DNA of 64,000 nucleotides from contig NC_092035.1 in assembly GCF_042242105.1 (NCBI RefSeq), positions 6,220,977 to 6,284,976 of the forward strand, written 5' to 3'. The position numbers and the translations under genes were made by a program. Below are positions 14,150-55,077 of this stretch, piece by piece. Source of the DNA: Pempheris klunzingeri. Its lineage: Eukaryota; Chordata; Actinopteri; Acropomatiformes; Pempheridae. The number at the start of each line of letters is the position of its first letter. Positions within the stretch are counted from its first letter, which is position 1. Below the pieces are notes generated by a model, which worked only from the letters and a program-made list of their open reading frames with translations, had not been told where the DNA came from and did no database searches.

Positions 14150-25705
<11,556 letters not shown>

Positions 25706-27220: not shown

Positions 27221-28424
27221 AACGGTCACACCTGCTGCTAGTTAAGGAAATTAGGAAAGTCGCCTGATTGGCAGCACAGGAAATGATGTCAGCACACTTC
27301 CGCAGCAGCAGATGACTTAAGAGCCTGAGCGGATCGTTGGCACGTTTTTTGCTGCTCGTTTTTCTGCTTCAAAAACATGTTTGGAGGAGGAGAAGAAAAC
27401 TACCAGAGGAAAACATCATGAAGACGCTGAGTTGGGTTTGGTTAATGCGGTCAGTCTGAGGCTGAATGGCCGAATACAAACACAAAGAGAACAAACACAT
27501 GATGGTAACAAGCTAGCTAATTAGCCACTTAGCTAACGCTAGCTAACCATGCTAACAGCCGCTACATTCGGACCTGAGAACGTATTTTCGTACCTCCTCG
27601 TGTGTAAACGTGTGTTGGTATGACAACGTTCCTTGAATCTTTGAAAGCTAATTGTATTGAAATGTCAGTAATCACCGTTAATGTCAAAATATTTTATTTG
27701 CCGTCTCAAATAGTTACTGAAGTTTAACAGCAAGTTTCAAAATGTATTTCAACAAAGTAAATGTAAAGAGACTGAGAGAAAAGTCATCAGTGCAAATATC
27801 CACTCTTTTATTTCCTACATCAGATGTGTGCAGCCTTGTTCAACATGAAGGTGATACAGCTGTAACTTCTGATCACTTATTGATTGATTCTTTTTCCTTT
27901 CATGCTTCAGGTGGGCTGGTGTTCACTGCTGAGGAGCAGAGGAAGAGTCTTCCTGCCAGTATGTGTTGGGAAAGAAGCACAATGGTTAGTAACTTTAATT
28001 AAAACTTAAATCATTGATTTCTACTATTTGATATATTATAAATTATTGTTGGAGCTAGCTTGTGATTCTATGACCTGATTAACATCTTTCACTTTTAAAG
28101 TGTCTGGAGGTTCATTTGTGTTTCTTTTATTTCAGATGGTTTTCCCAAACGAAGATAAAAACCCCTGAAGATCTTCTAAATACGACAGCGCAAGATGGTC
28201 TATCTCCACCAGTGTTTCCCAAAGTTGGAGTAAGATTTTATGCAGCCATTTTGCTCATTATGCACTTCATTTGGAAAAAATTAAAATGTTTCAAACTCAA
28301 ACAATGTTTCTTTTGGCTTTGTATTTTCTACTTGCTTCTAAAGTGGCTTTATGTTTACACATACAATTTCACATTACACTCAATCCAGTACCAGTAAAAC
28401 ACAGGATTCTGCTCCAAAATAAAA

Positions 28425-28545
28425 TGGGGCCAGCTGTGGCTCATCCTTCCATCAGGAGGTCGGGGTTCCAGCTCCATGGGTCAGTGTGTGAATGAGGTCA
28501 TAGAAAGGTGCTATACAAATGCTGACCATAGGTGGATCCACAGCT
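28425..28545 (+). mobile_element. tRNA-derived SINE fragment
   Basis: Contains AGCTGTGGCTCAT, GGGGTTCCAGCTCC and the tail GGTGCTATACAAATGCTGACC, which resemble the head and tail of a widespread fish tRNA SINE. Related fragments sit at the mirrored positions near 53558-53700 and in the inner copy near 43795-43890. Confidence 0.45.
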
Positions 28546-28856
28546 TTGCCTTTTCAGTGTAGTTAAACCAAGGCAAAAAAAAAAAAAAAAAAAAAAAATC
28601 ACAAAATAGAAAACAGGAAACAAGATTTAGACTTTTTTTTTTTTTTATTTAATTAAAATACAAGACACAGTGAAGGTGCTGCTTGGCTCACTGGACATCC
28701 AGCAGGAACATGGAGGCAGATCCTGTCAGAGGAAGACTGAAGAGGAGCTGCTGGTCTACTTTTACCTCAAAGTAGTTTCTGACAATTAACTAGTAACTCT
28801 TGCAGCAGCAAAAAAAGTAAACACAACAACTTGCACTTAATTTTACATGTCTTTAT

Positions 28857-29067
28857 TTAGAAATCAGTGCTGTTTGGATCCACGGTTGATTCAGGTTCTC
28901 CTGGTGCATCCTGGGAACACACAAAAAAACAAGTTTTTTCTTTTGCTGATGCATGAAGATGCTGCAGAGGAGTAATGTTGAATGCATTAATACTTACTAC
29001 AGTCTGCTACTTTTCCACAGGACCTTCCGTTTGGATCCACAGCTGATTCAGGTTCTCCTGCTGCATC
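28857..29067 (-). pseudogene. Duplicated terminal exon pair of unknown gene, left copy
   Basis: Minus-strand exon 28998-29067 (70 nt, donor GTAAGT, acceptor CTTCCAG) is followed by exon 28857-28910, whose TAA stop overlaps the AATAAA at 28852-28857. The two exons are near-duplicates; frames read DAAGEPESAVDPN and DAPGEPESTVDPN. I do not recognise the protein. Other copies are at 43266-43482 and 53070-53276. Confidence 0.4.
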
Positions 29068-31092
29068 CTGGAAGACACAAAAACAGCATTACTTTGATCA
29101 AAGAGTGACCAGAGAGAAGGTTAAACTTGTTCTCTTCATTTTAAATAAAATTTAACGTGACAACATCCTGTGTTCAGATTTACTGATTCCTCATCTCTTC
29201 CCACCAGACACCTGGATACTTTTAGATTCTCCCTTTACAAACTAGCACCAATAGAGAATTATTTACTGCAAGAATTTACAAATCTTCAATGTTTGTGCTC
29301 CAATTCCAACATTTAGTGCCATTAACATTAACTGTTAGTGTGTTTTCTACCTGGAAACAAGTAGTTCAGGAAGAAATCAGTTTGATGTGGGAGAAAATAA
29401 AAGCTCACATTTCCTGTCTAAACACATTTATGTGATGTTCTAGGTAAAGTTGAGCGTTTTTACCACAAGCTGTTCCTGTCACAGGTTCTTCAGCCCAGAC
29501 TCAGGACACGCCACCTGCAACGGAAGAGATTTTCACAATAAAACTACAGCTCTTTACCAAAGTAAAAAGGAAATAAGACATTATAGATGAAGTTCACCTG
29601 CAAACACAGACGAAATGTGATGAAGCTGCACCTGATCTCAGCCACAATAAACCACCAATTTGATGCTTAGCTTTTGGTCTTTAAACTAATTTAATCCTTT
29701 CCAAACAGGCCACATGCTAATGCTACATGCTAACACTAGCCAGCATGTTAGCCACTGATTGGCCACAAGGTGAAACTGATCAGTGATTATTGACCCTGCA
29801 GTCCAGTCATTAGCAGCAAACTCACTGCAGATGCTCACCAATTAAACAGGACTATAATGAACGTGACACTGAGCCTGAGCTTTAACTCTCCTGCAGCTGC
29901 TGAGTTACAGAAAACAGCTGAGAGGCCTGATGAGGAACTTCAAGATGTTCTAGTGCAAACACAGAACATTACAAACAGGTTCATCGGCCACAATGAAACC
30001 ACCAATATAGAAAAATGTATCAGCTGTGCACCTTAGCATGGTTAGCTAATTAGCTAGCTACTGAACACCCATTTGTTTGCATACCAAAACCAACTCCGTG
30101 ATGTTTTCTTCCTCTGGACCTCCGAAGGACTTCATGAAGCACAAAACGAGCCCAAGCAAAGCGTCCGGGTGTTTGCAGCAGAAGGAGAAGAGCCGACTGG
30201 CGCCGGGTGAGTCAAACCTTCAGACTTTTATAGTGATGGACACACCATGCGGCAAATCACGTGGGAGGACACATTAGGATCATACCATTATGTAGTAGGG
30301 GAGACGCTCTGAAGACAGGAAGTGAGGTGGTACAGTCCAGGTACAGAGGACATAGTGATGGCTGATCGAGGCTTTGTTGAAGTTCGACACTTAATTGAAA
30401 AATGGTTAATTACTCGAGGCTTCAATGACACCGCGCTCCAGTAGGACATCTAGTGGTCAATAAGATGAAGTGCACTGGAGACGTGTCATTTCTTGGTTCA
30501 TGGACTGTTTGGGCTTTGATTCTCCATCCTCATTCCTGTTCACTACACTACATGGCTGTATGGTTTCAAGCTGACACAATGAAATAGAAAATAAGCATGA
30601 ACTCATGTTGTTGTCTTGTTTGACACGTCTGGTTGCAGGAATGAATGAATGAATGTCTTGTCACTGCAACGGGTTTAATGAAATTGAAAAGTAGTGGGCT
30701 GTAGCTGTATACCTGACATCAAGTCTGAATAGCCCATAGCTGAAAAGATGTAGAATAGTGGGCGTTCAGTAGGCTAGCTGGCAAATGTGATCTCATTTCA
30801 AATGTTTAATTAGTTTCAGTAAAGTGGGGGTGCTTGTGTAACTGTTTCTGAGTTTTCCTGAAGAGAGAGTCCTCGTCTGCTGCCCCCTTTGTGCCAGTAA
30901 ACTCCAACATCACAAATCTGCTCCCCCCTGCAGGAGAACTGCAGCACCCAGCTGTGCAGGGACAAGTGGCTCCGACCGCCGGGGTCAAAGTCACTCTGTT
31001 TCACCGGCAAATACAGCAAGAGGTGAAGAGAGTCGGAGGAGTTTCCCCTGAGCTGCTGACCACGCAAGATGGAGATGGTGACACGTATGTAC

Positions 31093-31652
31093 AGGTAGGT
31101 GCATCTCAAAACATTCAATTCAAAAAGTGAAACTCATATACTATACAAGAGCAAAGTCAACGCAGCCGTCTACCAGCACATTTTAGAGCATTTCATGCTT
31201 CCATCGGCTGACCAGCTCGACGGAGATGCCGAGTTCCTCTTGCAGCAGGACTTGGCACCTGCCCACACTGCCAAAACTACCAAAACCTGGTTTATTGAGC
31301 ACGGCATTACTGTGATCGATTGGCCAGCAAACTCCCCCGACCTGAACCCCATAGAGAATCTATGGGGTGAGAGAATAGAGACCCCAGACCCAACAATGCA
31401 GACGAGCTGAAGGCCGCTCTCAAAGCAACCTGGGCTTTTTTTCAGTCGGTTTTATGTAATATTCTAATCCTGACTTTGGGGTTTTCATGAGCTGTAAGCC
31501 ACAATCATCACAATTACAACAAATAATAATAAAAATAATATTTCATTTTGTGTGGAATGAATCTATATAGTATATGAGTTTCACTTTTTGAATTGAATTA
31601 CAGAAATGAATGAACTTTTTCACGATATTCAAATTTTTTGAGATGCACCTGT
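31093..31652 (+). mobile_element. Tc1/mariner remnant, left arm
   Basis: Bounded by GGTGCATCTCAAAA and TTGAGATGCACCTGTA with AAAAAGTGAAACTCATATA inner repeats, the ends of a common fish Tc1 family. Inside, the frame at 31170-31410 encodes the C-terminal transposase motif LLQQDLAPAHTAKTT...NSPDLNPIENLWG with the last Asp and Glu of the DDE triad. The N-terminal two thirds and the extreme C terminus are missing, so it is a non-autonomous deletion derivative. Mirrored at 50433-50989. Confidence 0.85.
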
Positions 31653-31654
31653 AT

Positions 31655-32410
31655 TAGAACAGAATAGATTAGAATAGAATGTCTTTATCGTCGTTTATAG
31701 AGGTACAATGAAATTGAAAGTGCAATCCACTTTAAGTGCCATAAAAAAGTATAAAGTATATAAAAGAAGTACCCTGAATGACAATAATATCTAAAAAAGC
31801 ACAAAGTGCAGAGTATAAAACAAATAAAAAACATCTTCATATAAATAACATCCAGCAGCATCACACTTCTATTTAATGTCCGGCAGTGTTTAGTACAATT
31901 ATGGCTCTTGGCTAGAAGCTGTTTTTAATCTGTTCGTACTTCAGTGTCCGAAAACGTCTACCAGAGGGCAAAAGTTGGAACAGTGAAAAGCCGGGGTGGG
32001 TCGCATCCCAGCCGATCTTCCGCGCCTTCCTCGGACAGCGGGAGCTGTAGACTTCCTCCAGGGAAGGTAGAGGGCAGCCGGTGATCTTCTGGGCCATGGC
32101 GATGACCCGTTGGAGCGCCTTCCTGTTTGCTGCCGGCAGCTGGAAAACCACACGCAGATGCAGTACGACGGGATGCTTTCTATGGAGCATCGGTGAAAAG
32201 ACACCAGCAGTTTGTGGGAGAGATGGTTGTTCCTGAGAATCCTCAGAAAATAGAGTCTCCGCTGTACCTTTTTAATGACGGCTCTGGTGTTGGCGCTCCA
32301 GGTCAAGTCATCCTCAATGTGCACGCCCAAGAACCGGTGGCTGGAGACCCTCGGCACACAATCCCCACCAATCAATCAATCAATAGGGGCTGAATGTCTG
32401 TTTTCCTCCT
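31655..32410 (-). mobile_element. L2-type LINE 3' fragment, left arm
   Basis: Minus-strand frames encode the reverse transcriptase C terminus (HRFLGVHIEDDLTWS, RRLYFLRILR) but shift frame afterwards; CPLPSLEEVYSSRC and LLPSGRRFRTLKY lie in another frame. The 3' end is TGCACTTTCAATTTCATTGTAC followed by a short TCTAT-type tail. It is 5' truncated and inactive. Mirrored at about 49675-50432. Confidence 0.75.
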
Positions 32411-32879
32411 CCTGAAATCTAAGACGAGCAGTGGACAAAGTCGCCAGTTTAAACCAGTCATTCCTGGCAGGGTATTAAAGACTGAACACTAGTTAGCAAG
32501 CAAAGAGGTTGAAATGGGCAACTAAAAGTGGCTGACGTAGTCCAACACCGAAACAGCTCACAGTCATGGATAAACAGTCTGAAGTCATTTGCATGTGGAT
32601 GTAATCTAACTGTGTCGTTTCTTCTCAAACTGCCAGATTTGTCCACAGAGCCGTGGCTCAGGGCAGACGGGCTCTGGCTCGTGCGCTCGCTGCCCTCTGG
32701 GGCCGCTCTCCTTTGCAAGTGTGTGCTGAGAAAGGCCACTACCTCAGTCTGCAGGTGAGGGTCCACTGTGAGAGCTTCATCACAAGTCTGGAGGCGACAC
32801 CGGAGTTAGTTTGAGCCTAGAGCTTAGAGAAAAGGAGGGTCAGTGGTCACTCCCAGTGCTGCTTGCCCCTGACTGTCCC

Positions 32880-33130
32880 ATCATAGACTTGGTGTATGAC
32901 AATGAACAATTTTTGTCCGTTTTTATAATTCAGGAGCACAAAGTGTTGTGGTAACAGCACCTGTGGCACAAGGAGCTCCATTATACCTCCTATAATAAAT
33001 CTGTAGGGAGTAAAATCCAAAGTGGAAACTAAAGAGATAATATAAAGAGAGAACAGATGAAAAGACAAAACAGTGAAAAAGAGAACACGAGTGGAGGAAC
33101 AGTGATAAATAGTGCAAGGCCAACTACAGG
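32880..33130. other. Connector sequence without gene
   Basis: Lies between the second nfkbiz-like exon and the LINE. Open frames here are short and unconvincing on both strands. The mirrored sequence is about 48960-49210. Confidence 0.4.
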
Positions 33131-34899
33131 AGGAAAATGGAAGATCATCTTCAGCGGAGCAACACGAGGGAGGTCTGGAGAGGTCTCAAATCCATGTCAG
33201 GGCAGGAGATAAGCAGTAGGAGAGACCCTGAACCTGGAGACAGAGACTGGGCCAACAAGCTAAATCTGTTTTTCAACAGATTTGATAATGGGCCCACCCC
33301 TCCCCCTCCCTCCCCCTCCCCAGCCTGAGCACAGACCAGCCAACCCCCAGCTCCTCACCACCACCATCTCCGGGGCCCTCACCCTCCCCCTCACTTCCAC
33401 AACCACCTCTGGTCCTCTCACCTCCACCCCCCCACCCCCCACCACCCCATCTCCGCCCCCTGGTGAGCCCACACATGGATCCCCTGCAGTTTGCATATCA
33501 GCCTGGAATTGGGGTGGATGACGCTGTCATCTACCTGCTGCAGAGATCCCTGTCTCACCTGGAGGGCAGTGGAAGCACTGTGAGGATCACTTTCTTTGAT
33601 TTCTCCAGTGCCTTCAACACAATCCTACCTCCACTGCTCAGGGTGAAGATGGAGAGAGCGGGAGTCAGTGACCAGCTGGCTGCATGGGTCACTGACTACC
33701 TCACGGACAGACCCCAGTATGTGAGACTGCAGGACAGTGTGTCTGATGTGGTGGTTTGCAGCACAGGGGCCCCCCAGGGAACGGTACTGTCACCTTTCCT
33801 CTTCACCCTGTACACATCAGACTTCAGGTACGCTACAGACAGTTGTCACCTCCAGAAGTTCTCTGATGACACTGCCATCGTGGGGTGTGTGTCAGAGGGG
33901 AACGACTGTGAATACAGGACGGTCATCACGGACTTTGTCGACTGGTGTGGACGAAACAACCTCCTAGTCAACGCCAGCAAGACGAAAGAGATGGTGGTCG
34001 ACTTCCACAAGAAACCCTCCATCACTGCACCAGTGAGCATCCAGGGACTTGGCATCGAGAGAGTGAGGACATACAAGTACCTGGGTGTTCACCTTAACAA
34101 TAAACTGGACTGGACAGACAACACTGACTCTCTCTACAAGAGGGGTCAGAGTCGACTATACCTGCTGAGGAGGCTAGGATCCTTTGGAGTGAGCAGACCA
34201 CTCCTGAGGACCTTCTTCGAGACTGTGGTGGCATCTGTGGTCTCATATGCAGTGGTGTGTTGGGGAGGGGGGTGCTCTGAGCGGGACAAGAACAGGCTCA
34301 ACAGACTAATTAAGAGAGCCGGCTCGGTGTGTGGCTGCCCCCTGGACCCCATAGAGGTGGTGGGAGAGAGGAGGACCTTGTCCAAACTGTCCTTCATCTT
34401 GGACAACACCTCCCACCCTCTGCATCAGACTGTGGGGGCCTTAAGCAGCTCCTTCAGTCACAGACTGATACACCCCAGGTGTAAGAAGGAGCGCTTCCGC
34501 AGGTCCTTCATCCCGACTGCAGTCAGACTGTACAATGCTGCATTATAGTCTGCTGCACCAACCACCACCACCACCTGTGCACTTTACTATAACATAAACT
34601 GTACAATAATTCTCACCCCACTTCACTTCACCCTGTTGTTGTTTGTCTCTGTAATTACATTTCTTTGTGTACATAGGTTTTTACCACTGTATATATTATA
34701 TTATATTCTGCTATTTAATTTTTCTAATTCTATTATATTCTGCTATTTAATTTTTCTAATTCTATTATATTCTGCTATTTAATTTTTCTAATTCTTAACT
34801 GTGTGCTTTTATTTTTCTATCTGTCCCTTTGAGCTGCTGTAACAGCAAAGTTTCCCCACTGAGGGATCAATAAATAAATATCTATCTATCTATCTATAG
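33130..34899 (+). mobile_element. CR1/L2/Rex-like LINE with truncated RT, left arm
   Basis: A 5'-truncated LINE. An upstream frame contains MEDHLQRSNTREVWRGLKSM, then a proline-rich stretch. The main frame (33463-34548, 361 codons) covers reverse transcriptase FFDFSSAFNTI, GAPQGTVLSPFLFTLY, the FSDD catalytic motif and YKYLGVHLNNKLDW, up to a natural stop. Compared with the right-arm copy, about 345 bp are missing near 33445, removing the N-terminal RT blocks (KATGPDGI region). The 3' end carries a 32-bp tandem repeat (three copies) and a (TATC)n tail. Clade assignment is uncertain. Confidence 0.85.
34686..34898 (+). repeat. 32-bp tandem repeat and (TATC)n at LINE 3' end
   Basis: The unit ATTATATTCTGCTATTTAAT... 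is repeated three times at about 34700-34797, and the element ends in CTATCTATCTAT at 34880-34898. The right arm carries only two units (about 46982-47045), so this is a length difference between arms. Confidence 0.8.
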
Positions 34900-35029
34900 T
34901 TCCTCCTACAGGACACAAGGGGGCGCTGTGTCTTCAAAAATGCAAAACACGTGAAGCCAAACTTGTACCTGCTCCGTGGGATGAACTCGGCTGAGGGTCC
35001 GCGGTAGAGCGGGTCGTCCCCCCCCCTCA

Positions 35030-35100
35030 TGTAAAAGCGCTTTGAGTAGTTGAAGTAACTAGAAAGGCGCGAGACAAATACAGACCATTTACCATTTAAC
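35030..35100 (+). mobile_element. SINE tail fragment
   Basis: AAAGCGCTTTGAGTAGTTGAAG followed by AAGGCGCGAGACAAATACAGACCATTTACC is the typical tail of a fish tRNA-derived SINE (more often GCGCTATATAAATACAGTCC). The mirrored copy is at about 46690-46775. Confidence 0.5.
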
Positions 35101-35797
35101 TCCCTGAAATAAATGTGTTCCATTTTGCTGTGGATGATTAACACCCGTAGTTTCTACATCGACTGAGCTGCTGCTAAACTTTCCTGCTGCTAAACTTTCC
35201 TGCTGCGACGGTGCTCGTGTTGAGGAAATGACGTCAGGAGCAGGTGACGTTGAACCTGAGCGGATCGTTGGAGTGTTTTTCTGCTCGAAAAAGATGTTTG
35301 GAGGACGAAAGGAAAGGTGGAGAAGGACTCGAGGAAAACACCACGAAGACGCGGAGCTGGCTTTGGTTAATGAGGTCAGTCTGAGGCTGAGTGGCCGCAC
35401 GGACAGACACATACACAACACACAGCTAGCTATTTAGCTAACGCTAGCTAACCATGCTAACAGCTGCCACATTTTACTGCTTTCTGAGGCGGATAAACAA
35501 ATCAGCCAGCGGCCAAGTTCACCAGACTGATGACTAAATGTAGCTTATTATGAGAAGGAACGTGTTTTATTTTCACACCGTTACTATCAGAGGAAATCAG
35601 CACCGCCTATTGATTAGCTTCGCTACAGTGACAGACAATCAACACCAGGAAAGAAAAGCCAGCAACAGACACTAAACACTAAACTCACTATGATTTCAAG
35701 TTTGTAACTCGGTGGATGATGTTCATTTAAATAACCAAGCTGCTTGCGGTTAAATAGCAGCAGTGTTTCTAGTTTTGGCTACAACTGTCCAGTCTGG

Positions 35798-36303
35798 CTG
35801 TTATAAGATAAGATATTCCTTTATTTATCCCACAATGGGGAAATTTCAAGTCAGCAGCAGTTCTGATTCACACATACAAGATACAGTTCACACATACAAA
35901 GAAAGGGAATAAAAAATATAAAATATATATATGTTTACATGTACAGTATATACAAACAATAATGTATGGTGAAAGAATGATAGAATGAGGTGAGATGGAA
36001 AGGCTATTGCACATGGGGAAAATATAAAATATATAAATATATATGAAATATTGCACTTGTTCCTTTTTCTTGGTCTTTGGTCTACTGGGAGCAGATTTGG
36101 TTGTAAAGTCTGATGGCAGCAGGGAGGAAGGACCTGCGATGCCTTTCTTTGGAGCATCGTGGGTGACGAAGCCTGTCACTGATGGAGCTTTCCAGGGCTC
36201 TTACAGTCTCATGTAGGGGGTGGGAGACATTGTCCATGATTGATGACAGCTTCGCTACCATCCTCCTGTCACCCACCACCTCCACAGGATCGAGGCTGCA
36301 GCC
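35798..36303 (-). mobile_element. LINE 3' end, left arm
   Basis: Reverse complement of 45518-46020. It includes the RT C terminus (VVGDRRMVAKLSSIMDNVSHP ... RSFLPAAIRLYN) and the 3' UTR ending AAATAAAGGAATATCTTATC. It is cut at 36303 where the palindrome arm ends. Confidence 0.8.
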
Positions 36304-36484
36304 TGGTCAGGAAGGTCCACCAGCATCTCTACTTCCTCAGGAAGCTGCGGCGCACCGGACTGGGGAGCTCAGTCCTGAGGAGCTTCTACCAACGTGAGGT
36401 GGAGAGCATCCTCTGCACCAGCATCCCTGTGTGGCACGACAGGGAGGCTCTGCAGAGAGTGGTGAAGGCTGCACAGAGTTTGTC
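36303..36484 (+). mobile_element. Second LINE fragment at arm junction
   Basis: Encodes VRKVHQHLYFLRKLRRTG and SSVLRSFYQREVESILC, a different LINE RT fragment in the opposite orientation to the one ending at 36303. It has no counterpart on the right side, so it marks a rearrangement breakpoint. Confidence 0.65.
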
Positions 36485-36690
36485 CAAATCCTCCTCACTT
36501 TTTATTCATCGGCATCCTGCAGTTCTCCACTGTCCAGCGCTTGTATAAAATGTAATTGCTGTACGATTTTCTCCCCCTTGCAGATGCACGGACTGAAGCG
36601 ACAACACGTTTGAAGAAGAGGAGCGTTCTGCAGCCACTGAGGGAACATGTGCTCTGTGCTGAAGCTCTCAGGTAGGAGATTTGTTCTCAG
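36484..36690. repeat. Inner inverted repeat, left copy
   Basis: Matches the reverse complement of about 44446-44660 (shared GAGCGTTCTGCAGCCACTGAG, TTTATTCATCGGCATCCTGC). It is the outermost block of the inner palindrome. The function of the underlying sequence is unknown. Confidence 0.75.
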
Positions 36691-37935: not shown

Positions 37936-37994
37936 AGGACTGAGCGGTGAGAACAAGTACCAAGAAGTGAGGAACAGCTCAGGAGCACAGTCAC

Positions 37995-38075: not shown

Positions 38076-38123
38076 GTCCCTCCTTTCCCGCCAGTACGTG
38101 TTGGGAAAGAAGCACAATTGTTA

Positions 38124-38533: not shown

Positions 38534-38997
38534 TAATTAGTGTGAATGCTGCAACACAGCTAACTCTTGTTGTCCGATTTATTTATTCTTCTTCCTCGCA
38601 GGTGTCGCAGCACAAATCTCCATGAAAAGAGCTGCATGTGAGCAGAGTGACAGCAGATGAGCAGCAGCTCATTAGTGACGTTTGAGCCACCAGACCAGCA
38701 GCAGCAGCAGCATTTACACTGCAATTTCTTCAGGAATTGCAATTTTTCTAGTTAATTAGTAGAGTTTGACTGTAGTGATGTGCAGAACAAAGTGCTGCGT
38801 ACAGGTGAGCTATTTTTCAGTCTTTGTACGATTTGATATATTTATAATATATAAATTAAAAATATAAAGTATTGTTGGAGCTAACTTGTGATTCCATGAC
38901 CTGATTAACATCTTTCACCTCTAAAGTGTTGTGCCCTCTTTATTTCAGCTGGTTTTCCCAAATGAAGATGTCAAATACAACCTGAGCACTTCTTCTA

Positions 38998-39081
38998 GTG
39001 CGACAGGGCTCGTGGTGCGGTGGGATAAGTCGCTGCCATACAAGGCACTGAAGAATCAGAGGTGCCAGGTTCGATCTAGTG
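38998..39081 (+). mobile_element. tRNA-derived sequence, inner left copy
   Basis: GTGGTGCGGTGGGATAAG (A box) and AGGTGCCAGGTTCGATCT (B box) spaced as in a tRNA. It pairs with the inverted copy at 44194-44283. The downstream tail is unlike a tRNA gene, so a SINE head is likely. Confidence 0.45.
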
Positions 39082-41069: not shown

Positions 41070-41240
41070 AGGTACAGAGCCACAGAGAGACGGATTTAAA
41101 TACATAACACTTGACTTTGAGTTCAAGAAATGAGCGAAAACCGTAAAAGAAGCAGCATCAGAGAGGGAAGCTTGAAATAGTCTGTACCTCCACACAGCTC
41201 GTCCCATTTAACTCACCCGTCGCGGTGCTCTTTAGCCTGC
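41070..41240. other. Centre of the palindrome
   Basis: About 170 bp between the inner ends of the two halves. It has no match elsewhere in the window and no gene. The outer-arm mirror axis computes to about 41050. Confidence 0.5.
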
Positions 41241-41274
41241 TAACATCATCCTGTCGTACTGCATTCGCGTGTGG

Positions 41275-41432
41275 TGCTTGAATTACTGCATCAATGCGGC
41301 GTGGCATGGAGGCCATCAGTCTGTGGCACTGCTGAGGTGTTATGGAAGCCCAGGTTGCTTTGAGAGCGGCCTTCAGCTCGTCTGCATTGTTGGGTCTGGG
41401 GTCTCTATTCTCTCACCCCATAGATTCTCTCT
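41275..41432 (-). mobile_element. Tc1 3' transposase fragment, central copy
   Basis: On the minus strand this reads the transposase C terminus (ITPQQCHRLMASMPRR then DAVI). That region is absent from both arm copies, which end earlier. It is joined at a CTCT microhomology to the nfkbiz-like exon, with deletion of about 330 bp relative to 50731-51057. A 30-bp LINE scrap precedes it. Confidence 0.7.
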
Positions 41433-41607
41433 TCACCTCTTGCTGTATTTGCCGGTGAAACAGAGTGACTTTGACCCCGGCGGTCGGAGCCACTTGTCCC
41501 TGCACAGCTGGGTGCTGCAGTTCTCCTGCAGGGGGGAGCAGATTTGTGGTGTTGGAGTTTACTGGCACAAAGGGGGCAGCAGACGAGGACTCTCTCTTCA
41601 GGAAAAC
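41433..41607 (-). pseudogene. nfkbiz-like: nfkbiz-like exon a, central copy (truncated)
   Basis: Minus-strand copy of the first exon-like block, nearly identical to 51060-51231. It lacks the last 60 or so bases, so the EVKRVGGV...DGDT end and the splice donor are gone. No partner exon b is found next to it. It is a broken fragment. Confidence 0.65.
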
Positions 41608-43265: not shown

Positions 43266-43482
43266 GATGCAGCAGGAGAACCTGAATCAGCCGTGGATCC
43301 AAACAGAAGGTCCTGTGGAAAAGTAGCAGACTGTAGTAAGTATTAATGCATTCAACATGACTCCTCTGCAGCATCTTCATGTATCAGCAAAAGAGAACTT
43401 ATATTTTTTTTTTGTGTTCCCAGGATGCACCAGGAGAACCTGAATCAACCGTGGATCCAAACAGCACTGATTTCTAAATAAA
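43266..43482 (+). pseudogene. Duplicated terminal exon pair of unknown gene, central copy
   Basis: Exon 43266-43335 (acceptor CTTCCAG, donor GTAAGT) and exon 43424-43477 with stop TAA and AATAAA at 43477-43482. The exons are tandem near-duplicates around GAGAACCTGAATCA.CCGTGG. Protein not recognised; possibly only repeat sequence with fortuitous splice sites. Confidence 0.4.
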
Positions 43483-43727
43483 GACATGTAAAATGAAGTG
43501 CAAGTTGTTGTGTTTACTTTTATGCTGCTGCAAGTTACTAGTTAATTGTCAGAAACTGGTTTGAGGTGAAAGTAGACCAGCAGCTCCTCTTCAGTCTTCC
43601 TCTGACAGGATCTGCCTCCATGTTCCTGCTGGATGTCCAGTGAGCCAAGCAGCACCTTCACTGTGTCTTGTATTTTAAATAAAAGGTTTTGACTAAATCT
43701 TGTTTCCTATGTCTTTTCTATTGGGAG

Positions 43728-43772
<45 letters not shown>

Positions 43773-44193
43773 CTTGGTTTAACTACACTGAAAAGGCAAA
43801 GCTGTGGATCCACCTATGGTCAGCATTTGTATAGCACCTTTCCATGACCTCCTGCCTGAGGAATGACCCACAGCTGGCCCCATTTTATTTTGGAGCAGAA
43901 TCCTGAATCAATCCAGAATATTTTACTGGTCCTGGATTGCATGTAATTTGAAAGTGCTAATTTTTGAACCCAGCAATGGTGAGTTTAAGGGTAAATAAAA
44001 TGCCAATTAGGAAGCAGGTAGAAAAATACCTGGTTGGAGCCTGAAAGTATTTTTTTTCTTATAAATGTAAAAAGTGCATAATGAGCAAAATGGCTGCTTT
44101 TTTTTTTTTAATGTGCTTTTTCAATAAAATGAGCTGCATACCTGACTTCACCTTGGGGAAATAAATCAGCCCTCGCAAAACACCTTCTTTAGC

Positions 44194-44283
44194 ACTATTG
44201 CCACACACCGGGATTGAACCCAGCACCTCTGATCTTCAGTGCCTCTTCTGACTGCGACTTAACCCACTGCGCCACAGACACCT
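44194..44283 (-). mobile_element. tRNA-derived sequence, inner right copy
   Basis: On the minus strand: TGTGGCGCAGTGGGTTAAGT (good A box) and GTGCTGGGTTCAATCCC (good B box), about 75 nt in total. This is the better preserved of the two inner copies. It looks like a SINE head or tRNA pseudogene; no matching acceptor stem is seen. Confidence 0.5.
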
Positions 44284-44445
44284 GTCACACTAGAAGATCA
44301 CGGGGCGATTTTGTCATCTTCGTTTGGGAAAACCATCTCAAAAAAAGCACAACATTTTAAAAGTGAAAGATGCTAATCGCATCATGGAATCACAAACTAG
44401 CTCCAACAAGAATTTATATTTCTAATTTCTAGATTATAAACCTAC

Positions 44446-44660
44446 CTGAGAGCTTCAGCACAGAGCACATGTTCCCTCAGTGGCTGCAGAACGCTCCTCT
44501 TCTTCAAACGTGCTGTCGCTTCAGTCCGCACATCTGCAAGTGGGAGAAAATGGTACAACAATTACACTTCATACAAGTGGTGTTTACAGTCAGCAGCAGC
44601 GCTGGAAAGTGGAGAACTGCAGGATGCCGATGAATAAAAAGTGAGGAGGATTTGGACGAA
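44446..44660. repeat. Inner inverted repeat, right copy
   Basis: Reverse complement of 36484-36690. It is followed by unit sequence shared with 54130-54440, which the left side has lost or had replaced by LINE sequence. Confidence 0.75.
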
Positions 44661-45034
44661 CCTGAAGACTCTTCCTCTGCTCCTCAGCAGTGAACACCAG
44701 CTCACCTGAAGCATGAAAGGAAAAAGAATCAATCAATAAGTGATCAGAAGTTACAGCTGTATCACCTTCATGTTGAACAAGGCTGCACACATTTGATGTA
44801 GGAAATAAAAAAGTGGATATTTGCACTGATGACTTTTCTCTCATTTCATTCTCTTTACATTTACATTGCTGAGATACATTTTGAAACTTGCTGTTAAACT
44901 TCAGTAACTAAATATTTGGACATTAATGGTGATCACTGACATTTGAATGCAATGTGCTTAAGGAAGCACTGAGTGATCTATTTCTGATCCTAAAGGTGAT
45001 CATCATCAGAAATCTGCCTACAATTACAGAAATA

Positions 45035-46020
45035 ATAATAATTCTCTGACGACTCAGCCATCGTCGGTCTCATCAACAACAGAGACGAGGGGGAGTACAG
45101 AGAGCTGAACAAAAACTTTGTGGACTGGTGCCAGCAGAACTGCCTCCGGATTAATGCCGGAAAAACCAAAGAGCTGGTAGTGGACTTTCGTCGGCACAAA
45201 GACCCTCCCTCTCCGGTGAACATCCAGGGAACGGACATAGAGATTGTGGACTCTTACAAGTACCTGGGTGTTCACCTCAACAAGAAGCTGGACTGGACTG
45301 TTAATACTCAGGCACTCTTCAAGAAAGGCCAAAGCAGACTCCACCTGCTGCGTAGACTGAGGTCTTTCGGAGTGGCGGAGGGCCTCCTGAGGACTTTCTA
45401 TGACTCTGTGGTGGCATCAGCCATCTTCTACGGTGTGGTCTGCTGGAGCAGCAGCATCACGGCAGCAGAGAAGAAGAGACTGAACAAACTGGTGGACAAA
45501 GCCAGCTCTGTCCTGGGCTGCAGCCTCGATCCTGTGGAGGTGGTGGGTGACAGGAGGATGGTAGCGAAGCTGTCATCAATCATGGACAATGTCTCCCACC
45601 CCCTACATGAGACTGTAAGAGCCCTGGAAAGCTCCATCAGTGACAGGCTTCGTCACCCACGATGCTCCAAAGAAAGGCATCGCAGGTCCTTCCTCCCTGC
45701 TGCCATCAGACTTTACAACCAAATCTGCTCCCAGTAAACCAAAGACCAAGAAAATAGTAACAAGTGCAATATTTCATATATATTTATATATTTTATATTT
45801 TCCCCATGTGCAATAGCCTTTCTATCTCACCTCATTCTATCATTCTTTCACCATACATTATTGTTTGTATATACTGTACATGTAAACATATATATATTTT
45901 ATATTTTTTATTCCCTTTCTTTGTATGTGTGAACTGTATCTTGTATGTGTGAATCAGAACTGCTGCTGACTTGAAATTTCCCCATTGTGGGATAAATAAA
46001 GGAATATCTTATCTTATAAC
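45035..46020 (+). mobile_element. CR1/L2/Rex-like LINE 3' fragment
   Basis: A 5'-truncated LINE. The 205-codon frame 45120-45737 carries the late RT region VDWCQQNCLRINAGKTKELVV, YKYLGVHLNKKLDW and a conserved C terminus; DDSAIVGL just upstream holds the catalytic Asp pair. The 3' UTR ends with GGGATAAATAAAGGAATATC. Only its second half (from 45518) is mirrored in the left arm. Confidence 0.85.
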
Positions 46021-46689
46021 AGCCAGACTGGACAGTTGTAGCCAAAACTAGAAACACTGCTGCTATTTAACCGCAAGCAGCTTGGTTATTTAAATGAACA
46101 TCATCCACCGAGTTACAAACTTGAAATCATAGTGAGTTTAGTGTTTAGTGTCTGTTGCTGGCTTTTCTTTCCTGGTGTTGATTGTCTGTCACTGTAGCGA
46201 AGCTAATCAATAGGCGGTGCTGATTTCCTCTGATAGTAACGGTGTGAAAATAAAACACGTTCCTTCTCATAATAAGCTACATTTAGTCATCAGTCTGGTG
46301 AACTTGGCCGCTGGCTGATTTGTTTATCCGCCTCAGAAAGCAGTAAAATGTGGCAGCTGTTAGCATGGTTAGCTAGCGTTAGCTAAATAGCTAGCTGTGT
46401 GTTGTGTATGTGTCTGTCCGTGCGGCCACTCAGCCTCAGACTGACCTCATTAACCAAAGCCAGCTCCGCGTCTTCGTGGTGTTTTCCTCGAGTCCTTCTC
46501 CACCTTTCCTTTCGTCCTCCAAACATCTTTTTCGAGCAGAAAAACACTCCAACGATCCGCTCAGGTTCAACGTCACCTGCTCCTGACGTCATTTCCTCAA
46601 CACGAGCACCGTCGCAGCAGGAAAGTTTAGCAGCAGCTCAGTCGATGTAGAAACTACGGGTGTTAATCATCCACAGCAAAATGGAACAC

Positions 46690-46775
46690 ATTTATTTCAG
46701 GGAGTTAAATGGTAAATGGTCTGTATTTGTCTCGCGCCTTTCTAGTTACTTCAACTACTCAAAGCGCTTTTACAT
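46690..46775 (-). mobile_element. SINE tail fragment, right arm
   Basis: Mirror of 35030-35100: GGTAAATGGTCTGTATTTGTC then CTCAAAGCGCTTTTACATG on the plus strand. Confidence 0.5.
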
Positions 46776-46908
46776 GAGGGGGGGGGACGACCCGCTCTAC
46801 CGCGGACCCTCAGCCGAGTTCATCCCACGGAGCAGGTACAAGTTTGGCTTCACGTGTTTTGCATTTTTGAAGACACAGCGCCCCCTTGTGTCCTGTAGGA
46901 GGAACTAT

Positions 46909-48955
46909 AGATAGATAGATAGATATTTATTTATTGATCCCTCAGTGGGGAAACTTTGCTGTTACAGCAGCTCAAAGGGACAGAAAAATTAAATAGCAGA
47001 ATATAATAGAATTAGAAAAATTAAATAGCAGAATATAATATAATATATACAGTGGTAAAAACCTATGTACACAAAGAAATGTAATTACAGAGACAAACAA
47101 CAACAGGGTGAAGTGAAGTGGGGTGAGAATTATTGTACAGTTTATGTTATAGTAAAGTGCACAGGTGGTGGTGGTGGTTGGTGCAGCAGACTATAATGCA
47201 GCATTGTACAGTCTGACTGCAGTCGGGATGAAGGACCTGCGGAAGCGCTCCTTCTTACACCTGGGGTGTATCAGTCTGTGACTGAAGGAGCTGCTTAAGG
47301 CCCCCACAGTCTGATGCAGAGGGTGGGAGGTGTTGTCCAAGATGGAGGACAGTTTGGACAAGGTCCTCCTCTCTCCCACCACCTCTATGGGGTCCAGGGG
47401 GCAGCCACAGACCGAGCCGGCTCTCTTAATTAGTCTGTTGAGCCTGTTCTTGTCCCGCTCAGAGCACCCCCCTCCCCAACACACCACTGCATATGAGACC
47501 ACAGATGCCACCACAGTCTCGAAGAAGGTCCTCAGGAGTGGTCTGCTCACTCCAAAGGATCCTAGCCTCCTCAGCAGGTATAGTCGACTCTGACCCCTCT
47601 TGTAGAGAGAGTCAGTGTTGTCTGTCCAGTCCAGTTTATTGTTAAGGTGAACACCCAGGTACTTGTATGTCCTCACTCTCTCGATGCCAAGTCCCTGGAT
47701 GCTCACTGGTGCAGTGATGGAGGGTTTCTTGTGGAAGTCGACCACCATCTCTTTCGTCTTGCTGGCGTTGACTAGGAGGTTGTTTCGTCCACACCAGCCG
47801 ACAAAGTCCGTGATGACCGTCCTGTATTCACAGTCATTCCCCTCTGACACACACCCCACGGTGGCAGTGTCATCAGAGAACTTCTGGAGGTGACAACTGT
47901 CCGTAGCGTACCTGAAGTCTGATGTGTACAGGGTGAAGAGGAAAGGTGACAGTACCGTTCCCTGGGGGGCCCCTGTGCTGCAAACCACCACATCAGACAC
48001 ACTGTCCTGCAGTCTCACATACTGGGGTCTGTCCGTGAGGTAGTCAGTGACCCATGCAGCCAGCTGGTCACTGACTCCCGCTCTCTCCATCTTCACCCTG
48101 AGCAGTGGAGGTAGGATTGTGTTGAAGGCACTGGAGAAATCAAAGAAAGTGATCCTCACAGTGCTTCCACTGCCCTCCAGGTGAGACAGGGATCTCTGCA
48201 GCAGGTAGATGACAGCGTCATCCACCCCAATTCCAGGCTGATATGCAAACTGCAGGGGATCCATGTGTGGGCTCACCAGGGGGCGGAGATGGGTTAGGAC
48301 GATCCTCTCAAGTGCCTTCATCAGGTGAGAGGTTAAGGCCACGGGTCTGAAGTGGTTGGGCTCCTTGGGGCGCGAGGTCTTAGGAACTGGAACCACACAA
48401 GAAGTCTTCCACACGGCAGGAACTTTTTCCAGACTCAGGCTCAGGTTGAAGATGTAGCAGACCACCTGACAGAGCTGGTCTGCACAGTCCCTGAGGAGTC
48501 TGGAGCTGATGCCATCAGGGCCCGTGGCTTTCCTGGCTTTGATCTTCTTCAGTTGACTTCTCACCTGATCAACAGTTGGTGTGAAGAGAGGAGGGGGAGA
48601 AGGGGGAGGGGGAGGGGAGGGGGAGAGCTGCCAATGAGGTGGTGGGGGGTGGGGGGGTGGAGGTGAGAGGACCAGAGGTGGTTGTGGAAGTGAGGGGGAG
48701 GGTGAGGGCCCCAGAGATGGTGGTGGTGAGGAGCTGGGGGTAGGCTGGTCTGTGCTCAGGCTGGGGAGGGAGGGGGAGGGAGGGGGAGGGGGTGGGCCCA
48801 TTATCAAATCTGTTGAAAAACAGATTTAGCTTGTTGGCCCAGTCTCTGTCTCCAGGTTCAGGGTCTCTCCTACTGCTTATCTCCTGCCCTGACATGGATT
48901 TGAGACCTCTCCAGACCTCCCTCGTGTTGCTCCGCTGAAGATGATCTTCCATTTT
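46909..48955 (-). mobile_element. CR1/L2/Rex-like LINE with long RT frame, right arm
   Basis: Minus-strand LINE with an uninterrupted 538-codon frame (47191-48807). It contains a proline-rich lead, then RT blocks ARKATGPDGISSRLLRDC, FRPVALTSHLMKALE, FFDFSSAFNTI, APQGTVLSPFLF, FSDD and YKYLGVHLNNKLDW, ending at a natural stop. A second frame (48569-48952) gives the segment before it (MEDHLQRSNTREVWRG). The endonuclease and ORF1 are missing, so the copy is 5' truncated. The 3' end has two units of the 32-bp repeat and (GATA)n. It is the fuller of the two mirrored copies. Confidence 0.88.
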
Positions 48956-49674
48956 CCTCCTGTAGTTGGCCTTGCACTATTTATCACTGTTCCTCCACTC
49001 GTGTTCTCTTTTTCACTGTTTTGTCTTTTCATCTGTTCTCTCTTTATATTATCTCTTTACTTTCCACTTTGGATTTTACTCCCTACAGATTTATTATAGG
49101 AGGTCTAATGGAGCTCCTTGTGCCACAGGTGCTGTTACCACAACACTTTGTGCTCCTGAATTATAAAAACGGACAAAAATTGGTCATTGTCATACACCAA
49201 GTCTATGATGGGACAGTCAGGGGCAAGCAGCACTGGGAGTGACCACTGACCCTCCTTTTCTCTAAGCTCTAGGCTCAAACTAACTCCGGTGTCGCCTCCA
49301 GACTTGTGATGAAGCTCTCACAGTGGACCCTCACCTGCAGACTGAGGTAGTGGCCTTTCTCAGCACACACACACAAAGGAGAGCGGCCCCAGAGGGCAGC
49401 GAGCGCACGAGCCAGAGCCCGTCTGCCCTGAGCCACGGCTCTGTGGACAAATCTGGCAGTTTGAGAAGAAAGGACACAGTTAGATTACATCCACATGCAA
49501 ATGACTTCAGACTGTTTATCCATGACTGTGAGCTGTTTCGGTGTTGGACTACGTCAGCCACTTTTAGTTGCCCATTTCAACCTCTTTGCTTGCTAACTAG
49601 TGTTCAGTCTTTAATACCCTGCCAGGAATGACTGGTTTAAACTGGCGACTTTGTCCACTGCTCGTCTTAGATTT

Positions 49675-50432
49675 CAGGAGGAGGAAAACAGACATTCAGC
49701 CCCTGTTGATTGGTGGGGATTGTGTGCCGAGGGTCTCCAGCCACCGGTTCTTGGGCGTGCACATTGAGGATGACTTGACCTGGAGCGCCAACACCAGAGC
49801 CGTCATTAAAAAGGTACAGCGGAGACTCTATTTTCTGAGGATTCTCAGGAACAACCATCTCTCCCACAAACTGCTGGTGTCTTTTTACCGATGCTCCATA
49901 GAAAGCATCCCGTCGTACTGCATCTGCGTGTGGTTTTCCAGCTGCCGGCAGCAAACAGGAAGGCGCTCCAACGGGTCATCGCCATGGCCCAGAAGATCAC
50001 CGGCTGCCCTCTACCTTCCCTGGAGGAAGTCTACAGCTCCCGCTGTCCGAGGAAGGCGCGGAAGATCGGCTGGGATGCGACCCACCCCGGCTTTTCACTG
50101 TTCCAACTTTTGCCCTCTGGTAGACGTTTTCGGACACTGAAGTACGAACAGATTAAAAACAGCTTCTAGCCAAGAGCCATAATTGTACTAAACACTGCCG
50201 GACATTAAATAGAAGTGTGATGCTGCTGGATGTTATTTATATGAAGATGTTTTTTATTTGTTTTATACTCTGCACTTTGTGCTTTTTTAGATATTATTGT
50301 CATTCAGGGTACTTCTTTTATATACTTTATACTTTTTTATGGCACTTAAAGTGGATTGCACTTTCAATTTCATTGTACCTCTATAAACGACGATAAAGAC
50401 ATTCTATTCTAATCTATTCTGTTCTGTTCTAA
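49675..50432 (+). mobile_element. L2-type LINE 3' fragment, right arm
   Basis: Mirror of 31655-32410. The frame 49628-50140 carries RRKTDIQPLLIGGDCVPRVS and HRFLGVHIEDDLTW before shifting frame; the final part continues in the frame at 49891-50169. Confidence 0.75.
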
Positions 50433-50989
50433 TACAGGTGCATCTAAAAAAATTAGAATATCGTGAAAAAGTTCATTCATTTCTGTAATTCAATTCAAAA
50501 AGTGAAACTCATATACTATATAGATTCATTCCACACAAAATGAAATATTATTTTTATTATTATTTGTTGTAATTGTGATGATTGTGGCTTACAGCTCATG
50601 AAAACCCCAAAGTCAGGATTAGAATATTACATAAAACCGACTGAAAAAAAGCCCAGGTTGCTTTGAGAGCGGCCTTCAGCTCGTCTGCATTGTTGGGTCT
50701 GGGGTCTCTATTCTCTCACCCCATAGATTCTCTATGGGGTTCAGGTCGGGGGAGTTTGCTGGCCAATCGATCACAGTAATGCCGTGCTCAATAAACCAGG
50801 TTTTGGTAGTTTTGGCAGTGTGGGCAGGTGCCAAGTCCTGCTGCAAAAGAAACTCGGCATCTCCGTCAACCTGGTCAGCCGATGGAAGCATGAAGTGCTC
50901 TAAAATGTGCTGGTAGACGGCTGCGTTGACTTTGCTCTTGTATAGTATATGAGTTTCACTTTTTGAATTGAATGTTTTGAGATGCACCT
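50433..50989 (-). mobile_element. Tc1/mariner remnant, right arm
   Basis: Mirror of 31093-31652, with the same internal deletions. The minus-strand frame 50676-50987 holds LLQQDLAPAHTAKTT and NSPDLNPIENLWG. Confidence 0.85.
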
Positions 50990-53069
50990 ACCTGTACATA
51001 CGTGTCACCATCTCCATCTTGCGTGGTCAGCAGCTCAGGGGAAACTCCTCCGACTCTCTTCACCTCTTGCTGTATTTGCCGGTGAAACAGAGTGACTTTG
51101 ACCCCGGCGGTCGGAGCCACTTGTCCCTGCACAGCTGGGTGCTGCAGTTCTCCTGCAGGGGGGAGCAGATTTGTGGTGTTGGAGTTTACTGGCACAAAGG
51201 GGGCAGCAGACGAGGACTCTCTCTTCAGGAAAACTCAGAAACAGTTACACAAGCACCCCCACTTTACTGAAACTAATTAAACATTTGAAATGAGATCACA
51301 TTTGCCAGCTAGCCTACTGAACGCCCACTATTCAACATCTTTTCAGCTATGGGCTATTCAGACTTGATGTCAGGTATACAGCTACAGCCCACTACTTTTC
51401 AATTTCATTAAACCCGTTGCAGTGACAAGACATTCATTCATTCATTCCTGCAACCAGACGTGTCAAACAAGACAACAACATGAGTTCATGCTTATTTTCT
51501 ATTTCATTGTGTCAGCTTGAAACCATACAGCCATGTAGTGTAGTGAACAGGAATGAGGATGGAGAATCAAAGCCCAAACAGTCCATGAACCAAGAAATGA
51601 CACGTCTCCAGTGCACTTCATCTTATTGACCACTAGATGTCCTACTGGAGCGCGGTGTCATTGAAGCCTCGAGTAATTAACCATTTTTCAATTAAGTGTC
51701 GAACTTCAACAAAGCCTCGATCAGCCATCACTATGTCCTCTGTACCTGGACTGTACCACCTCACTTCCTGTCTTCAGAGCGTCTCCCCTACTACATAATG
51801 GTATGATCCTAATGTGTCCTCCCACGTGATTTGCCGCATGGTGTGTCCATCACTATAAAAGTCTGAAGGTTTGACTCACCCGGCGCCAGTCGGCTCTTCT
51901 CCTTCTGCTGCAAACACCGGGACGCTTTGCTTGGGCTCGTTTTGTGCTTCATGTAGTCCTTCGGAGGTCCAGAGGAAGAAAACATCGCAGAGTTGGTTTT
52001 GGTATGCAAACAAATGGGTGTTCAGTAGCTAGCTAATTAGCTAACCATGCTAAGGTGCACAGCTGATACATTTTTCTATATTGGTGGTTTCATTGTGGCC
52101 GATGAACCTGTTTGAGAACCAAAGTACCAGATTACTGTTGTAATAAACACTGATGGTTCTAATGTTCTGTGTTTGCACTAGAACATCTAGAAGTTCCTCA
52201 TCAGGCCTCTCAGCTGTTTTCTGTAACTCAGCAGCTGCAGCAGCAGGAGAGTTAAAGCTCAGGCTCAGTGTCCCGTTCATTATAGTCCTGTTTAATTGGT
52301 GAGCATCTGCAGTGAGTTTGCTGCTAATGACTGGACTGCAGGGTCAATAATCACTGATCAGTTTCACCTTGTGGCTAATCAGTGGCTAACATGCTGGCTA
52401 GTGTTAGCATGTAGCATTAGCATGTGGCCTGTTTGGAACGGGATTAAATTAGTTTAAAGACCAAAAGCTAAGCATCAAATTGGTGGTTTATTGTGGCTGA
52501 GATCAGGTGCAGCTTCATCACATTTCGTCTGTGTTTGCAGGTGAACTTCATCTATGTCATTTATTTCCTTTTTACTTTGGTAAAGAGCTGTAGTTTTATT
52601 GTGAAAATCTCTTCCGTTGCAGGTGGCGTGTCCTGAGTCTGGGCTGAAGAACCTGTGACAGGAACAGCTTGTGGTAAAAACGCTCAACTTTACCTAGAAC
52701 ATCACAAATGTGTTTAGACAGGAAATGTGAGCTTTTATTTTCTCCCACATCAAACTGATTTCTTCCTGAACTACTTGTTTCCAGGTAGAAAACACACTAA
52801 CAGTTAATGTTAATGGCACTAAATGTTGGACTTGGAGCACAAACATTGAAGAATTGTAAGTTCTTGCAGTAGATAATTCTCTCTATTGGTGCTAGTTTGT
52901 AAAGGTAGAATCTAAAAGTATCCAGGTGTCTGGTGGGAAGAGATGAGGAATCAGTAAATATGAACACAGGATGTTGTCACGTTAAACTTTATTTAAAATG
53001 AAGAGAACAAGTTTAACCTTCTGTCTGGTCACTCTTTGATCAAAGTAATGGTGTTTTTGTGTCTTCCAG

Positions 53070-53276
53070 GATGCAGCAGGAGAACCTGAATCAGCCGTGG
53101 ATCCAAACAGAAGGTCCTGTGGAAAAGTAGCAGACTGTAGTAAGTATTAATGCATTCAACATTACTCCTCTGCAGCATCTTCATGTATCAGCAAAAGAAA
53201 AAACTTTTTTTTTTTGTGTTTTCCCAGGAGAACCTGAATCAACCGTGGATCCAAACAGCACTGATTTCTAAATAAA
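53070..53276 (+). pseudogene. Duplicated terminal exon pair of unknown gene, right copy
   Basis: Exon 53070-53139 (70 nt, donor GTAAGT) and terminal exon from 53228, ending in TAA with AATAAA at 53271-53276. The second exon lacks nine or so bases (GATGCACCA) present in the other two copies. Confidence 0.4.
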
Positions 53277-53557
53277 GACATGTAAAATGAAGTGCAAGTT
53301 GTTGTGTTTACTTTTTTGCTGCTGCAAGAGTTACTAGCCAATTGTCAGAAACTGGTTTGAGGTGAAAGTAGACCAGCAGCTCCTCTTCAGTCTTCCTCTG
53401 ACAGGATCTGCCTCCATTTTCCTGCTGGATGTCCAGTGAGCCAAGCAGCACCTTCACTGTGTCTTGTATTTTAAATAAAAAAAAAAAAAAAAAAAAACTT
53501 TAAATCTTGTTTCCTATTTTGTGATTTTTTTTTTTTTTTGCCTTGGTTTAACTACAC

Positions 53558-53700
53558 TGAAAAGGCAAAGCTGTGGATCCACCTATGGTCAGCATTTGTA
53601 TAGCACCTTTCCATGACCTCATTCACACACTGACCCATGGAGCTGGAACCCCGACCTCCTGATGGAAGGCTGAGCCACAGCTGGCCCCATTTTATTTTGG
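53558..53700 (-). mobile_element. tRNA-derived SINE fragment, right arm
   Basis: Mirror of 28425-28545; read on the plus strand it starts ATGGTCAGCATTTGTATAGC. T-rich and A-rich runs (53475-53541) precede it. Confidence 0.45.
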
Positions 53701-55077
53701 AGCAGAATCCTGTGTTTTACTGGTGCTGGATTGAGTGTAATGTGAAATTGTATGTGTAAACATAAGACCACTTTAAAAGCAAGTAGAAAATACAAAGCCA
53801 AAAGAAACATTGTTTGAGTTTGAAACATTTTAATTTTTTCCAAATGAAGTGCATAATAATGAGCAAAATGGCTGCATAAAATCTTACTCCAACTTTGGGA
53901 AACACTGGAGATAGAAGATCTTCAGGGGTTTTTATCTTCGTTTGGGAAAACCATCTGAAATAAAAGAAACACAAATGAACCTCCAGACACTTTAAAAGTG
54001 AAAGATGTTAATCAGGTCATAGAATCACAAGCTAGCTCCAACAATAATTTATAATATATCAAATAGTAGAAATCAATGATTTAAGTTTTTTAATTAAAGT
54101 TACTAACCATTGTGCTTCTTTCCCAACACATACTGGCAGGAAGACTCTTCCTCGGCTCCTCAGCAGTGAACACCAGCCCACCTGAAGCATGAAAGGAAAA
54201 AGAATCAATCAATAAGTGATCAGAAGTTACAGCTGTATCACCTTCATGTTGAACAAGGCTGCACACATCTGATGTAGGAAATAAAAAAGTGGATATTTGC
54301 ACTCATGACTTTTCTCTCATTCTCTTTACATTTACTTTGTTGAAATACATTTTGAAACTTGCTGTTAAACTTCAGTAACTATTTGAGACGGCAAATAAAA
54401 TATTTTGACATTAACGGTGATTACTGACATTTCAATACAATTAGCTTTCAAGGATTCAAGGAACGTTGTCATACCAACACACGTTTACACACGAGGAGGT
54501 ATGAAAATACGTTCTCAGGTCCGAATGTAGCGGCTGTTAGCATGGTTAGCTAGCGTTAGCTAAGTGGCTAATTAGCTAGCTTGTTACCACCATGTGTTTG
54601 TTCTCTTCGTGTTTGTATTCGGCCATTCAGCCTCAGACTAACCGCATTAACCAAACCCAACTCAGCGTCTTCATGATGTTTTCCTCTGGTAGTCTTCCAG
54701 CTTTCTTCTCCTCCTCTAAACATGTTTTTGAAGCAGAAAAACGAGCTGCAAAAAACGTACCAACGATCCGCTCAGGCTCTTAAGTCATCTGCTGCTGCGG
54801 AAGTGTGCTGACATCATTTCCTGTGCTGCCAATCTGGCGACTTTCCTAATTTCCTTAACTAGCAGCAGGTGTGACCGTTGGGTTCAGGTGTTTTGCATTT
54901 TTGAGTACACAGCGCCACCTTGTGTCCTGTAGGAGTAACTGTTTATCAATGTTCCTCCAGAACTGTTTTTTTTCATTTATCATACTTTTATACATCTTTA
55001 CTTTTCATGAGCCATTCAGTGATATGTGTTAGCACTGTTCATGTGGGATAAATAAAAACAGTGTGAAGAGTGTGTAC

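Follow-up and report, generated by a model that had tools for sequence, protein, structure and literature searches.

The 27.7-kb nested palindrome between kif5c and cpb2 is, in our assessment, quite likely one copy of an interspersed segmental duplication (a "duplicon") of transposon fragments that is restricted to one chromosome, spread by duplication, and was shuffled among its copies. The window, meaning the whole 64,000-nucleotide stretch analyzed, is C24:6220977-6284976; C24 is 14.9 Mb long, in an assembly of 646 Mb and 439 contigs. We refer to the palindrome as P2, to its left and right outer arms as P2L and P2R, and to a second complete copy as P3. The literature searched, with partial coverage, held no account of this structure.

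Structure of the palindrome

Self-BLAST of the window returned inverted arms and an older inner pair, in agreement with the nested palindrome of the initial annotation and its coordinates. Its placement between kif5c and cpb2 also held, with a kif5-type kinesin exon and a cpb2 exon both supported. Genome DNA searches, with 40 candidates scored in each, gave no second copy of 22000-26433 beside kif5c or of 55402-60600 beside cpb2, except for an internal dispersed repeat in the latter. No tRNA was found in the window, and Rfam gave nothing there at gathering score. The parts of P2 are as follows.

26442..27113, + strand: left outer extension, among the copies examined common to P2L and P3R only
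27221..36303, + strand: P2L, left outer arm, inverted match to 45516-54879
36293..36304, no strand: left-arm inner junction, 12-mer AGGCTGCAGCCT, its own reverse complement, single occurrence in the window
36474..36676, + strand: old inner palindrome, outer edge, matching 44441-44664 in inverted orientation at 86%
38841..41079, + strand: M, about 80% identical to arm coordinates 28037-30348, of which it is an older inner copy
41346..44964, - strand: C, inner inverted copy, mosaic, 96.8-99.3% to the arms at 41427-43115 and 80-95% beyond
45516..54879, - strand: P2R, right outer arm, cut back at 54879 relative to six copies that reach the equivalent of 27114

Self-BLAST resolved the arms into four inverted matches.

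27221-29977/52154-54879: 95.2%, gaps counted
29972-33450/48634-52114: 98.8%
33446-34757/46982-48293: 99.5%
34759-36303/45516-47044: 97.9%, 8 mismatches and 24 gap bases

The arms had been put at about 9 kb with 1 to 2% substitution, and we found that 96 of 8934 aligned columns differ (1.07%). Identity is uneven, at 93.6 to 97.1% over 28574-29321 and 98 to 100% in most 250-column windows. Position 27221, taken previously as the outer edge, is not the usual one: arm homology begins at 27114 in six other copies, and P2 and P3 share sequence to 26442. The left extension includes a dispersed repeat, 26442-27042 (40 of 1629 candidates scored), and the P2/P3 homology stops where this repeat does. The reported deletion of about 345 bp between the arms was located at 33445 in the left arm. 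What had been read as an 18-bp duplication near 35180 is actually a 16-bp unit, present in 2.4 copies at 35168-35206. Since P2R alone of the four P2/P3 arms is without the extra unit, this difference looks like a loss in P2R.

The 9.2-kb center does contain an older inverted pair, with M and C matching piecewise at about 74 to 93% on opposite strands. Together they are two further copies of arm coordinates about 28.0 to 31.0 kb. Identity changes sharply within C, which suggests that part of C has been overwritten by arm sequence. At AGGCTGCAGCCT, opposite-strand LINE-like fragments meet, and P3 has the identical inner junction; the palindromic 12-mer might simply be an ordinary LINE motif. The spacer segment 37511-37877 is its own inverted repeat at about 78% by self-BLAST, a small hairpin-like element.

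Transposon and gene content

The following coding-like features were identified in P2.

30852..31127, + strand: exon-like frame with weak IkB-zeta likeness (E=0.013), in the left and right arms and partly in C
31092..31651, + strand: internally deleted Tc1/mariner-like element, ends set by eye, with terminal inverted repeats and a DDE_3 fragment
33289..34545, + strand: left-arm non-LTR retrotransposon frame, 419 aa, containing the 345-bp deletion at 33445/33446
45042..45734, + strand: second LINE-like fragment across the right-arm inner end, with a 71% DNA match to the arm LINE
47194..48825, - strand: right-arm copy of the arm LINE, 544-aa frame, RVT_1 E=2.6e-26
near 50435-50994: mirror copy of the Tc1/mariner-like element in the right arm

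The arm LINE by itself was also found on many other contigs in the genome DNA search. When 20 distinct frames of the window (19 inside the palindrome) were scanned with Pfam, only RVT_1, DDE_3, and ALKBH8_N reached the curated cut-off, and the ALKBH8_N matches sit in LINE-like frames. The 97-aa frame at 52053-52343 and other arm frames had no significant Pfam match, and no intact gene was recognized in the arms by Pfam scans of open reading frames. The palindrome has no evident coding function, and its likely effect is to serve as a substrate for rearrangement.

Related copies along C24

DNA searches placed arm-, M-, and C-like pieces at seven sites on C24, between 6.148 and 8.108 Mb. Complete sequence was compared for P2 and P3; P1 and P4 to P7 were reconstructed from matched pieces, and "partial" describes them as those pieces show them.

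P1: C24 6.148-6.161 Mb
P2: window 26442-54879, within C24:6220977-6284976
P3: C24 6.554-6.582 Mb, complete inverted copy
P4: C24 7.160-7.175 Mb
P5: C24 7.392-7.407 Mb
P6: C24 7.532-7.551 Mb
P7: C24 8.089-8.108 Mb

Full arm matches were all on C24 among the matches listed. With further arm copies found elsewhere on C24, we gave up the view that the outer arms arose as a one-off event at this locus. Window 26442-54879 matches C24:6582495-6554064 (P3) in inverted orientation about 0.3 Mb away. The two settings are unrelated: P2 lies between kif5c and cpb2, and P3 is flanked by beta/gamma-crystallin exons (Pfam Crystall, 2.6e-29 and 3.5e-34). Between P2 and P3, 60 of 9163 positions differ in the center (0.65%), 84 of 8903 in the corresponding left arms, and 90 of 8785 in the right arms. 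The 345-bp deletion of P2L is also in the corresponding P3 arm, so the asymmetry between the arms is older than the copying. Each palindrome also has indels of its own, with 550 bp missing from P2 and 539 bp from P3.

P2 and P3 show the features of segmental duplications: blocks longer than 1 kb, more than 90% identity, separate locations, and unique flanks on each; at the other C24 sites, this pattern is seen through the matched pieces. The arm is common to nine copies and the flank types vary, as for a core duplicon.

Test of arm-to-arm conversion

An alternative is that the palindrome formed locally and that gene conversion between its arms, of the kind seen on mammalian Y chromosomes, maintains their likeness. 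The initial annotation had put low divergence down to recent formation or continuing conversion of this kind, and had proposed sister species for deciding whether arms are more alike within than between. We made the comparison on paralogous palindromes instead of sister species, and mates were no closer than other arm pairs. All six distances among the four P2/P3 arms fall between 0.93 and 1.12%: 1.07% (P2) and 0.93% (P3) for mates, 0.94% and 1.10% for corresponding arms, and 1.06% and 1.12% for crosses. The P3 mates have the smallest of the six, but barely. Over 29350-36303 alone, the six distances are 0.57 to 0.71%.

Individual sites gave a mixed picture. Mates are united by 11 of the 25 informative sites in the four-arm test, the largest class and a point for conversion, but 9 sites unite corresponding P2/P3 arms and 5 unite crosses. 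Because 7 of the 11 mate-uniting sites lie within 28286-28974, a local arm-to-arm event there is possible. Among two-against-two indels of at least 3 bp, 7 of 9 unite corresponding arms (27152, 27195, 28182, 29890, 33297, 33451, which is the 345-bp one, and 34699) and 2 unite mates (28269 and 28793). Those at 27152, 27195, and 28182 are unreliable, being non-arm sequence or part of a larger gap, and without them the count is 4 to 2.

The outer 5.4 kb could be compared across nine arm copies. Mates differ by 1.40% (P2) and 1.26% (P3), in the middle of the range of the other 34 pairs (mean, 1.28%; range, 0.66 to 1.64%), with 19 of the 34 below the P2 mates and 13 below the P3 mates. The smallest distances are 0.66% for P6-P7, which have the same flank type, and 0.69% for P3L-P1, which have different ones. 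Pairwise conflict among the 80 informative sites is 50%. Neighboring sites conflict less than distant ones (0.456 versus 0.504 when shuffled; P = 0.0025; PHI-type permutation with 2,000 shuffles), which indicates exchange among all copies, in a test of one alignment of the outer 5.4 kb to which misalignment in the indel-rich 27.4 to 29.3 kb could add conflict. Four of the 80 sites (27419, 28286, 28974, and 32341) are exclusive to P2L and P2R, so occasional arm-to-arm conversion may have occurred.

Taken together, we regard arm-to-arm conversion as a rather unlikely main cause of the likeness. Recent formation, the other part of the earlier proposal, is reasonable for arms that diverge by about 1%. 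A vertebrate palindrome can then reach about 99% arm identity with no preferential conversion between its arms, since these are members of a larger family exchanging sequence along the chromosome.

Outer flanks and boule-like gene copies

The outer flanks of the arms are of at least three types, which are at odds with the grouping of the arms. P3L, P5, P6, and P7 have about 4 to 6.5 kb of flank in common at about 99%, P2R and P1 have common sequence near 54968-55135, and the flank of P4 differs in the part seen. Because the P3L flank resembles those of P5 to P7 and the P2R flank that of P1, P2R and P3L may not correspond strictly.

The flank shared by P3L, P5, P6, and P7 contains boule-like single-RRM exons, which therefore adjoin four of the nine arm copies and are absent from the window.

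C24:6550607-6551037: boule-like copy
C24:7410963-7411393: boule-like copy
C24:7555093-7555523: boule-like copy
C24:8084901-8085331: boule-like copy

The joined exon peptide matched RRM_1 in Pfam (2.4e-16), and NCBIfam returned nothing for one of the exons. In a PDB search, DAZL matched residues 2-72 at 9e-15, with 57.4 bits for its one RRM. The multi-RRM chains of PABP and nucleolin outrank DAZL by whole-chain E value, although the top score of any one PABP domain is 27.6 bits. We take the gene to be boule rather than dazl from C-terminal motifs that match those of BOLL. In genome searches, which diverged boule or dazl genes could escape, the exons occurred as a set at four sites, each on C24, with no other close copy reported in the assembly. 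The best weaker match elsewhere is on C267 (44% identity, E=3.6e-7), and such weaker RRM matches may be other RRM genes.

All four copies have the same in-frame TGA in the exon read as encoding the start of the RRM. As judged from this shared stop, they are probably pseudogenes copied after inactivation; use of another start or exon is possible. P6 also has a partial second boule-like copy. Beside P7, the initial 1364 bases of the boule-flank query recur three more times in series, at C24:8072145-8080813.

Mobile element or assembly artifact as alternatives

The differing flanks also bear on whether the palindrome is carried by a very large mobile element, of fold-back or composite type, that moves as a unit. 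This would suit the unrelated contexts of P2 and P3 and the coincidence of their left homology end with a dispersed-repeat end at 26442. However, an element of this kind has fixed ends, and here the left extension is in P2 and P3 alone, the other outer ends differ among copies, and four copies carry the additional shared flank. No intact transposase was seen, and the confinement of the listed full arm matches to C24 also argues against mobility. Weakened by the differing outer ends, a giant mobile element seems highly improbable.

An assembly artifact, by read folding or false haplotype duplication, would fit copies about 99% alike but is most improbable of all, given the 9.2-kb center of different sequence, the independent indels, two complete copies that differ in flanks and each have indels of their own, and no N in the 209,811 letters of locus sequence, some of which overlap. 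The earlier argument from independent indels against simple read folding is strengthened by P3, a second complete copy with different flanks, the same deletion, and the same inner junction; the deletion common to P2L and its P3 counterpart makes folding very unlikely. The structure is read from the assembly, in which near-identical copies may be misplaced or collapsed.

Proposed order of events

For the chromosome-restricted duplication that we favor, two complete and several partial copies make the order of events readable. An old inverted M-C pair has the R arm joined to C; the complete palindrome, with the L arm at the M side, is present twice (P2 and P3); five other C24 sites have M/C-plus-arm parts; and the arm copies fall into conflicting groupings. 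We infer that R was copied in inverted orientation and attached on the M side via a strand or template switch, for which the switch point would be a short self-complementary sequence within LINE-like fragments. An inverted duplication of the palindrome to a site about 0.3 Mb away would have followed, with ectopic gene conversion or unequal exchange afterwards shuffling the copies.

Comparison with known systems

A close parallel may be drawn with LCR16a/NPIP of primates, interspersed segmental duplications with a core duplicon (PMC7419210). Both have near-identical blocks among unique genes, a common core (here the arm), and differing flanks. Unlike LCR16a/NPIP as presented there, the core here consists of transposon remnants and contains nested inverted repeats, and no maintained open reading frame was recognized.

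The initial annotation had likened P2 to vertebrate ampliconic palindromes. Its architecture bears this out, with long inverted arms above about 97% identity (1.07% divergence); Pfam scans of open reading frames recognized no intact gene in the arms. With the Y palindromes P8/VCY (PMC6790999) and the human DAZ cluster on the Y (PMC3017096), the likenesses are long inverted arms of about 99% identity, the gain of palindromes and their duplication nearby, and, for DAZ, a DAZ-family gene adjoining some arm copies. Unlike those palindromes as portrayed there, the paralogous copies here show no preference for likeness within a palindrome, and the boule-like copies next to some arms have one stop codon in common. 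The presence of these copies raises the question of sex linkage of C24. A reading of C24 as a young sex chromosome or a sex-linked region of this fish, with palindromes and boule amplified together in parallel to the primate-Y DAZ palindromes, strikes us as unlikely.

Other occurrences of inner and exon-like segments

Across eight copies from C10, C14, C19, and C24, the best-conserved part of the inner segment (29601-30100) has no common reading frame. Inner-segment matches listed on C5, C10, C14, and C19 are on one strand only. At C24:2.65-3.80 Mb, a hand count among the matches listed gave at least seven older pairs of inner-segment copies in inverted arrangement, in six of which the opposite-strand matches are 3 bases apart. 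A frame related to the exon-like one at 30852-31127 lies at C24:8121700-8122098 and matches the same IkB-zeta chain weakly (E=0.005); Pfam gave nothing for either frame. Among the matches listed, the 30852-31127 frame has 44 matching pieces, one on C4 and the rest on C24.
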